A stretch of 64,000 nt of DNA from positions 434,001-498,000 of the forward strand of contig NC_021921.1 of the NCBI RefSeq assembly GCF_000470655.1, read 5' to 3'. Within the stretch, counting starts at the first letter, position 1. Every line of letters begins with the position of its first letter. Origin of the DNA: Halorhabdus tiamatea SARL4B (GTDB lineage Archaea > Halobacteriota > Halobacteria > Halobacteriales > Haloarculaceae). The notes under the pieces were generated by a model. That model was not told where the DNA came from. It ran no database searches and saw only the letters and a program-made list of their open reading frames with translations. Of the stretch, positions 6,055 through 8,112 are shown in pieces. The position numbers and the translations under genes were made by a program.

Positions 6055-6297
6055 ATGGAACAACTCGACGTCGAGGACGGGTTCGATTTTCACGAGTACC
6101 GCCACGGACTCAAGTTACTCACAGACGATCGGGAGACGACCCACCTCGAAAACCGCGAGGGGTTCGCCTGTCCGGCCTGCGGTCGCCCGTTCGAGCGTCT
6201 GCTGGTGTCCGAAAAGCGGCTGCACACGTTCAACTCGCCACCGGGCCCGTTCTGTCTGGTTCGGACGGACGAGCAGTTGCTGGTGCTGACGCATTGA
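6055..6297 (+). CDS. Small zinc-ribbon-like protein, 80 aa
   Basis: 80 residues with a CPACGRPFERLL half-knuckle (Cys40-Cys43), then PPGPFCLVRT near the C-terminus. A haloarchaeal family of this size and pattern is often labelled 'flagella cluster protein' because one member sits in the archaellum locus; that name is from memory and says nothing of function here. No archaellum genes are present in this window. It follows the FAH-family gene by 34 bp and probably shares its transcript. Confidence 0.7.
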   Translation: MEQLDVEDGFDFHEYRHGLKLLTDDRETTHLENREGFACPACGRPFERLLVSEKRLHTFNSPPGPFCLVRTDEQLLVLTH

Positions 6298-6309
6298 CTT
6301 GCCGGTGGC

Positions 6310-6766
6310 GACCGATCGAAGGTGAGCCCCAGAAGCCGGACGTCACGGATTGAGCCTGGACGGGAGACGTTGTCCCCGGCCGGTCGGCCGGCGACGGCGT
6401 TACCCGGATTTCGACCGGGTCTTGCCAGCCAAGGGCGTTGCCCGGATTCCCACCGGGTGTTCCCTTCGCGAAGCGAAGGGGTGTAGCCGGAACGGCCGGC
6501 TGTGCCCGCATCAGCTGACGTGAGCCGGATTTTCGCCGGCGTTGCCGTCCGTGTTCCCGAAGCCCGTTTGCACGTGCTCCGGTAGTTGGCCTTCGTTTTC
6601 GACCGCCATGGCGGTCGACGGTCAGGCCGGTTCGGTCCTCCTTCGAGACCTGTGTCCTTGCCGCCTTTTTACGGGCGTTTCGGTTGTGGCCCCTACCTCG
6701 CTCCGTCTCGTCGCTTCGATCCGGAGCGTCGGCGTCCAGTGTGCCCCCGCGACTTCCGTGGGGGAC
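6310..6766 (-). ncRNA. Candidate structured non-coding RNA (hairpin array)
   Basis: A non-coding stretch of about 460 bp. On the minus strand a TTAATAAG box (6793-6786) lies about 25 bp upstream of a G at 6766, where a C5/G5 hairpin begins (6764-6760 with 6748-6744). Many further stem-loops follow: a 16-bp palindrome at 6601-6616, an 8-bp stem with a 3-nt loop at 6462-6480, a 6-bp stem at 6485-6501, and three similar stems with 7-nt loops at 6524-6540, 6441-6457 and 6402-6420, which share the minus-strand form CCGG-nnnnAAT-CCGG and are joined by GGYAACGCC-like linkers. No haloarchaeal-type protein frame is present. The 3' end is undefined. I do not recognise RNase P, SRP or any other known RNA. 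Confidence 0.4.
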
Positions 6767-6785
6767 GTTACAATACGACGTGGTA

Positions 6786-6793
6786 CTTATTAA
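6786..6793 (-). promoter_or_regulatory. TATA box for the candidate ncRNA
   Basis: On the minus strand this reads TTAATAAG. It lies about 25 bp upstream of the base where the first hairpin of the candidate RNA begins, the usual archaeal spacing between TATA box and start site. The box is nearly self-complementary, so it could also serve rightward transcription toward hmgA, whose start codon is about 110 bp away. Confidence 0.4.
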
Positions 6794-6836
6794 CACTTTC
6801 TGATGGCGGCTGACGTATCACCATATTGATTTGATC

Positions 6837-6857
6837 GGCAGACCGTGTCAGTCTGCC
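6837..6857 (+). promoter_or_regulatory. Inverted repeat upstream of hmgA
   Basis: GGCAGAC (6837-6843) and GTCTGCC (6851-6857) are perfect 7-bp inverted arms around a 7-nt loop, 43 bp before the hmgA start. It could be a repressor or activator site in the hmgA promoter, or a hairpin in a 5' leader if transcription starts upstream. Nothing further can be said from one copy. Confidence 0.35.
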
Positions 6858-6900
6858 CGGAAGGCAAACTGTTAGGGGCCGGGCTGTCGAGTGTACGGGC

Positions 6901-8112
6901 ATGGCAGCGGTAACTGACCTGGTCGAGCGCCTCCGCAGCGGGGAGCTTCGGCTATACGAACTCGAGGACATCGCCGATCCGGACGACGCGACGGCTGCAC
7001 GTCGTGCGTACGTCGAAGAAGAGACCGACGCCGACCTGGAGAAAGTTGGCTCGTATACGATCGACGCCGCCGACGCCGAGCCGAACATCGAGAACATGAT
7101 CGGGGCGGTCCAGATCCCGATGGGTGTCACGGGGCCTCTGCCCGTCGACGGCGAGGCGGCCGACGGCGAGTACCACGTCCCGCTGGCGACGACTGAAGGT
7201 GCCCTGGTCGCGAGCGTCAACCGTGGCGTCACGGCGATCCGGGACGCCGGCGGGTCGACCGCCCGCATCATGAAGTCGGGAATCACCCGCGCGCCGGTGT
7301 TCAGCGTCGAGGACGTCGGCGAGGCCAAGGCCGTCGCCGACTGGGTTCGCGAGAACGAGGCCGAACTCGCCGCCGTCGCCGAGGACACCGACCCGCACAT
7401 CGCCTTCGAGGACGTCACGCCGTACGTCGTCGGCGATTCGGTGTTCCTCCGGTTCCGCTATGACACCGGCGACGCCATGGGGATGAACATGGTCACCATC
7501 GCCAGCGAGGCGGCCGCCGAGTTCGTCGAAGAAGAGACGCCTGCCGAACTCGTCGCGCTCTCGGGGAACCTCTGTTCCGACAAGAAGCCGGCCGCGATCA
7601 ACGCCGTCGAGGGACGGGGGTATACAGTCGCTGCCGACGTCTTCATCCCCGACGAACTCGTCGAGGACACCTTCCACGCGACCAGTGAAGACATCGCCGC
7701 CGTCAACACCCGCAAGAACCTCGTCGGGAGTGCGAAGGCGGGGAGTCTCGGGTTCAACGCCCACGTCGCCAACATCGTCGGCGCGGCCTTCCTCGCACTG
7801 GGCCAGGACGAGGCCCAGGTCGTCGAGGGGTCCAACGCGATCACGAGTCTCGAAGCCCGCGAAGACGGCCTCTACGCCAGCGTGACGCTCGCATCACTCG
7901 AAGTGGGAACCGTCGGCGGCGGGACCGCATTGCCGACGCAGTCCGAAGCACTGTCGGTCCTCGGCCTCGCCGGCGGCGGCGATCCGGTCGGCTCGAACGC
8001 CGAAGCACTCGCGGAAATCATCGCGACAGCCGCACTCGCCGGCGAGCTCTCGCTGCTGGGCGCGCTGGCGTCGCGCCACCTTTCCAGCGCCCACGAACAG
8101 CTCGGTCGGTGA
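6901..8112 (+). CDS. hmgA: Hydroxymethylglutaryl-CoA reductase (class I, NADPH)
   Basis: 403 residues. Catalytic segments are intact: ENMIGAVQIPMGVTGPLP, TTEGALVAS (active-site Glu), GDAMGMNMV (Asp, NADPH site), LCSDKKPAAIN (Lys), and the C-terminal RHLSSAHEQLG histidine. The enzyme makes mevalonate from HMG-CoA, the committed step to archaeal membrane isoprenoids, and also feeds the carotenoid and retinal genes at 47-54 kb. In haloarchaea it is the target of statins. It stands alone with a 600-bp upstream region holding an inverted repeat and the candidate RNA on the other strand. Confidence 0.97.
   Translation: MAAVTDLVERLRSGELRLYELEDIADPDDATAARRAYVEEETDADLEKVGSYTIDAADAEPNIENMIGAVQIPMGVTGPLPVDGEAADGEYHVPLATTEGALVASVNRGVTAIRDAGGSTARIMKSGITRAPVFSVEDVGEAKAVADWVRENEAELAAVAEDTDPHIAFEDVTPYVVGDSVFLRFRYDTGDAMGMNMVTIASEAAAEFVEEETPAELVALSGNLCSDKKPAAINAVEGRGYTVAADVFIPDELVEDTFHATSEDIAAVNTRKNLVGSAKAGSLGFNAHVANIVGAAFLALGQDEAQVVEGSNAITSLEAREDGLYASVTLASLEVGTVGGGTALPTQSEALSVLGLAGGGDPVGSNAEALAEIIATAALAGELSLLGALASRHLSSAHEQLGR

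Follow-up and report, generated by a model that had tools for sequence, protein, structure and literature searches.

What does the gap between the DUF7385 gene and hmgA in Halorhabdus tiamatea SARL4B contain, and what might its content do in the cell? In the window, which is the whole stretch of 64,000 nucleotides that was analysed (genome G000), the DUF7385 gene ends at position 6297 and hmgA starts at position 6901, leaving 603 bp without a plausible gene. A minus-strand ORF of 188 aa spans this gap; it has no Pfam match and covariation favours RNA, and the protein-coding reading was therefore rejected. The minus strand has a predicted fold of -223 kcal/mol (z -4.7), which none of 100 dinucleotide shuffles equalled, and by the same measure the fold of the plus strand is weak (z -1.8). 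We conclude that the gap holds an RNA gene of ~420 nt on the minus strand, at about 6340-6765 within 6297-6900, its approximate ends being placed by homology to distant members, by a terminal stem and by the spacing of a TATA-like box (GTTAATAA, 6787-6794, minus strand). This box lies 23 nt before the first hairpin in the sequence, relatives have TTTATA or TTTATG at the same position, and the spacing suggests that the transcript would start with a short leader. An earlier note on this DNA had proposed a structured RNA that is undescribed and has a promoter of its own, and had seen a promoter-like box before the first hairpin; both proposals are supported, with no Rfam match, strong compensatory change and TATA-like boxes that align in the relatives. 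Directly 3' of the TATA-like box, a TGGTANCGTACCA-like palindrome scores at least 10 of 13 in 20 of 62 promoters, with ~2 expected from shuffles (L095, L105, L117, L122, L127, L128, L135, L137 and L139 are included), and it is probably the operator of a dedicated regulator.

The RNA was compared with known families and with published transcripts. Using Rfam 15, no family reached its gathering score, distant members included, and the best match, to IMES-1, had an E-value of 1.9 and 14 bits against a cut-off of 81. ARAGORN called no tRNA or tmRNA, and the archaeal RNase P RNA model RF00373 gave no match. No description of this RNA was found in the open-licence literature, nor a transcript mapping to it in other haloarchaeal RNA papers; s194 of H. 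volcanii was considered as a published transcript and rejected, as it is 97 nt long. The large ornate RNAs GOLLD, ROOL, OLE and IMES-1 are likewise long and intricate, with roles that are unknown or were recently clarified, but the RNA described here lacks an Rfam match.

We then asked how widely the RNA is distributed. A DNA search of 59 relatives gave matches at 78% identity in the congener G001, at 73% in G045 of another family of the order, and also in other genera. With covariance model R1 the RNA was found in 51/146 genomes of the family and, using strict filters, in 114/392 genomes of the order, usually once per genome. Outside the order, model R2 detected it in G453 (E 1.5e-13), G462 (1.6e-10) and, more weakly, G471 (4e-5), all three belonging to the same phylum, and G453 and G462 retain the conserved 3' tail described below. 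A pattern search named several Haloferax species and species of Haladaptatus, Halorussus, Natrialba, Natrinema, Haloarcula, Halapricum, Halobellus and Halorarius as holders, while two of its 62 matches were bacterial and look like chance. The Haloferax species with the RNA include H. denitrificans and H. gibbonsii, in which its predicted length is ~320 nt, and H. volcanii DS2 was not among these exact-pattern matches. The earlier note had allowed for a decayed mobile element; sequence and structure proved to be conserved, collections of plasmids, phages and viral contigs contained no match to the RNA, and a mobile-element remnant or phage RNA was rejected on the latter ground. Some loci show local irregularities. 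The 3' part of L052 is replaced by a sequence resembling the end of an insertion element, and so the sole RNA of this draft genome (G157, HARP not detected) appears to be broken. Tandem copies occur at L116 (G318, spacing ~440 nt) and L163 (G036), and a clear 5' terminal-stem strand was not found in the second copies L106 (G381) and L123 (G432), which may be truncated or decayed. In the Haloferacaceae (f4) a tRNA-Leu(CAA) gene is present within about 1.5 kb of the RNA at L133, L134, L135, L136, L138, L104 and L122.

From 5' to 3', members of the family have the TATA-like box, the short leader, an outer terminal stem, a 7x7 internal loop, an inner terminal stem, a core of five helices, an insert and a conserved tail (GUGGAAAACGUCUCCCGUCCGG) which closes the terminal stem. 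The outer stem has 7 bp and is often extended to about 12, the internal loop has the consensus GGANNCA / GUCCNAA, the inner stem also has 7 bp, and the insert ranges from 5 to about 215 nt. In the window, where all of these features are on the minus strand, the outer stem is formed by GUCGCGG (6747-6753) and CCGUGAC (6342-6348), which covary with each other. Inside it, across the internal loop, CUGGACG (6733-6739) pairs with 6356-6362, a strand that is part of the conserved 3' tail CCGGCCGACCGGCCGGGGACAACGUCUCCCGUCCAG (6356-6391) kept in distant members. Covariation of the inner stem is 18 vs 5.5 when shuffled, and the outer stem has 91 two-sided changes over 61 members vs 27 when shuffled (shuffle maximum 54), with the 5' anchor misplaced in several members in these terminal-stem counts. 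A 5' hairpin of the CCCCC/GGGGG type, recognised by sequence in the window (6744-6764) and in several relatives from some lineages only, shares bases with the terminal stem's 5' strand, and hence two mutually exclusive 5' structures are possible.

The conserved core of 150 nt (6549-6698) was defined by alignment and is the basis of models R1 and R2. Within it, the hairpin of helix 2 (CGCC..GGCG, 6662-6677) is enclosed by helix 1 (GGGGC..GUCUC) and supported by compensatory changes, helix 4 is a perfectly palindromic hairpin (UCGACCGCCAUGGCGGUCGA, 6599-6618) with two-sided changes at 9/9 pairs, and the hairpin of helix 5 (6557-6582), 3' of the conserved GAAGGCCAACUACCGGA, mostly has a GNRA-type loop at its tip. 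A first core alignment (150 columns, 11 members) had two-sided changes at 14/29 pairs; two aligned sequences, the chance match L025 and the partial L021, were excluded from the model. The covariance search and alignment in related haloarchaea, which the earlier note had suggested, were extended to 63 members and uncovered the compensatory changes it had hoped for: core pairing is kept in 95.3% of cells, and there are 349 two-sided compensatory cells vs 108 after shuffling and no more than 74 in controls made by sliding. This is a real and new structured RNA family. The palindrome that had been noticed in the gap is present, but not at the 16 bp given to it, the clearest being the 20 bp of helix 4. 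It extends over at least 8 bp through its centre in 40/63 members, and the centres vary (AU, UA, CG, GC) yet stay self-complementary. As a hairpin alone does not need an even palindrome, RNA dimerisation or a dyad acting at the DNA level is possible; universal dimerisation via this hairpin was rejected, since the palindrome is missing in 23/63 members.

The insert of the window RNA contains three hairpins with 7-nt loops, which the earlier note had recognised together with their GGYAACGCC-like linkers and had likened to tRNA T-arms. They are located at 6524-6540 (loop CGAAAAU), 6441-6457 (UGGGAAU) and 6402-6420 (UCGAAAU), and are supported by their sequence and by the loop consensus of the family, in which long inserts usually hold one to three such hairpins. 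The T-arm likeness is borne out in the family: 43 seven-base loops follow UGNRANN, with U1, R4 and A5 each found in 41/43, and two of the three window loops have all the T-loop features (7-nt loop, U1, R4, A5), the third having C1. Shared with the tRNA T-arm are the 5-6 bp stem, the 7-nt loop with U1, a purine at position 4 and A5, and the G-C closing pair; in contrast to tRNA, loop position 2 is mostly G, and the hairpins are lineage-specific and stand in tandem within a larger RNA. T-loop motifs also occur in the TPP riboswitch and in RNase P RNA.

A clue to the role of the RNA came from its neighbours and from the gene content of its hosts. An unbiased comparison of the ORFs around the RNA, all against all, singled out one main recurrent real gene, TIGR03875 (HARP; RNA ligase partner), found at 14/58 RNA loci and close by at 13 of them. 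HARP is a small PIN-domain protein, an RNA-free (protein-only) homologue of RNase P. Its gene and the RNA core are separated by no more than about 1 kb in f1, f4, f5, f13 and f17 and by about 1.4 kb in f6; the HARP gene may stand on either side of the RNA, with or without a ligase gene. The pairs are convergent in f1 (Halorarius, g15), f5 and f13 and divergent in f17 (Halorussus, Haladaptatus) and f4, and the gene order is HARP, ligase, RNA in G216 (f6) and RNA, HARP, ligase in G046 (f13). In the genome of the window, HARP is encoded at C2:1665221-1665832, which is not adjacent to the RNA.

Among the 392 genomes, 106 of the 114 with the RNA also have HARP, 57 have HARP only and 221 have neither; a plain Fisher test of this co-occurrence gives 4e-43, a value that overstates the case because the genomes share ancestry. 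In several genera it is the same minority of species that has both genes. Across seven hand-picked genera with mixed HARP content, all counted RNA-positive genomes have HARP (joint chance about 3e-5, for listed genomes at least 90% complete, with two RNA-positive, HARP-negative drafts of g9 left out). In G103, G129 and G112 the RNA and HARP genes are far apart and unlinked, and joint transfer of one segment is thus no explanation. Outside the order, HARP is present in 3/3 RNA-positive genomes vs 16 of the other 54 tested, and a search of 40 HARP-negative genomes with looser filters gave no credible RNA match. Eight RNA-positive genomes lack HARP, six being drafts at most 89% complete, with G007 and G178 about 99% complete. 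In G178 and G223 (L155 and L157, compared with L159) the RNA is kept, but the HARP-ligase pair that G216 has at the corresponding site is missing, which means that either the RNA outlives HARP or HARP came later.

The distribution of the Rnl3 ligase gave a further dimension to this pattern. Above the cut-off, Rnl3 genes were found in HARP-positive genomes only. The RNA is present in 45/46 HARP-positive genomes without Rnl3, the exception being G439, a draft of 85% completeness in which the HARP match is weak, whereas 56 genomes with both HARP and ligase are without it. In all, the RNA went undetected in 57 HARP-positive genomes, of which five belong to the genus of the window, and when searched again with looser filters these mostly remained without the RNA, with G297 as a possible weak member. 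The study of HARP and Rnl3 by Seshadri and Gopalan (2025, PMC12153264) concerns the same protein partner, with a similarly patchy distribution in halophiles and similar evidence from co-occurrence and adjacency; the accessible parts of that paper deal with the protein partner only and mention no dedicated RNA, while the RNA described here is present in almost every HARP genome that lacks the ligase.

Taken together, a functional tie between the RNA and HARP is likely, and this tie is better supported than any one mechanism, be it that of a substrate, a decoy or a scaffold. The reading we favour is that halophilic archaea have a new family of large structured RNAs that act in trans and jointly with HARP. 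This protein is reported to recognise chiefly the TpsiC loop, by its shape, with a dependence on the length of the acceptor stem (PMC9051087). It is also reported to work as an oligomer whose dimers share the task, one binding and another cutting (PMC9051087, PMC8266387), and to bind the tRNA elbow, with room for several tRNAs to dock (PMC8266387). Paired ends, a short leader and, in some lineages, tandem T-loops fit a ligand or substrate of such an enzyme, and HARP's bound ligand or substrate is what the RNA most likely is; binding, cleavage, circularisation and transcription are all steps that we infer. In such a scheme the short-leadered primary transcript would fold with its 5' and 3' ends brought together in an acceptor-like stem, and HARP would dock via tRNA-like features, namely the terminal stem and in some lineages the tandem T-loop hairpins. 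It would then trim the 5' leader and stay bound, and the joined ends could be ligated where Rnl3 is present, making the RNA a dedicated substrate or ligand that would determine the task of HARP in its host. The T-loop hairpins are missing in 37 short-insert members, including all 14 HARP-adjacent ones, and cannot therefore be a general handle for HARP; a long insert is found in 0/14 HARP-adjacent members vs 25/48 others (p 3e-4, uncorrected for ancestry). The terminal stem and core, which are common to nearly all full-length members, are better candidates for such a handle. A more specific version, to which we hold only tentatively, is that archaeal HARP supplies the protein to a ribonucleoprotein whose large, tRNA-mimicking RNA is dedicated to it, and that this RNA is matured by HARP and circularised where Rnl3 is present. 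The absence of a growth defect in Haloferax volcanii HARP knockouts (PMC12153264) counts against the model, as do the RNA-positive genomes that lack HARP and the HARP-positive ones in which no RNA was detected.

The same observations can be read in other ways. The tandem T-loop hairpins, and the ability of HARP to bind the elbow and dock several tRNAs (PMC8266387), would also suit a decoy or brake, that is a tRNA mimic that fills the surface with which the HARP oligomer binds the elbow, so that tRNAs are not cut, and it fits this idea that ligase-free lineages almost never have HARP without the RNA; we nevertheless consider it rather unlikely, as the short-insert members lack these hairpins, the HARP-adjacent ones among them, and the 56 genomes with HARP and ligase manage without the RNA. 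Alternatively, the RNA may have its own function, for instance in a salt-stress ribonucleoprotein, and merely share habitat and transfer routes with HARP. Both are rich in halophiles, G178 and G007 have the RNA without HARP and many genomes have HARP without the RNA, but adjacency in six families, co-variation within genera at unlinked loci and the complementarity with the ligase are hard to explain in this manner, making an independent function quite unlikely.

Two further readings fare worse. Archaeal RNase P RNA (RF00373) is likewise large and structured, occurs in the same cells and is tied by name to RNase P, and by eye the core stretch AAGGCCAAGUA seems to resemble a part that is conserved in bacterial RNase P RNA. 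That the family diverged from RNase P RNA, or is its paralogue, is still very improbable: sequence and structure are unlike, three members gave no match to bacterial or archaeal RNase P models at E<=10, and the window's genome has a normal RNase P RNA elsewhere (C2:1912250-1912709). A role in cis, as a leader or riboswitch of hmgA or of a different neighbour, can practically be dismissed. The RNA does lie just upstream of hmgA in G000 and G001, but five congeners have DUF7385 and hmgA side by side without the RNA and several other genomes carry it away from hmgA with different neighbours, so that this position is not general. For hmgA itself, a leader or riboswitch is refuted by position and orientation, the RNA being on the opposite strand, and the stem closed by the tail and the RNA's own TATA-like box also argue against a cis-acting role.

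We return to the RNA as a partner of HARP, and to what this would mean. The role of HARP in archaea is described as unclear, with knockouts that show no phenotype (PMC10941002, PMC12153264). An RNA that tracks HARP across species, often beside its gene, gives this question a concrete and testable object, and the Haloferax species offer genetically tractable hosts in which to pursue it. If the ribonucleoprotein reading is true, the so-called RNA-free enzyme would have an RNA partner after all, and archaeal HARP would not be a spare RNase P. The RNA may thereby reveal what HARP does in archaea.
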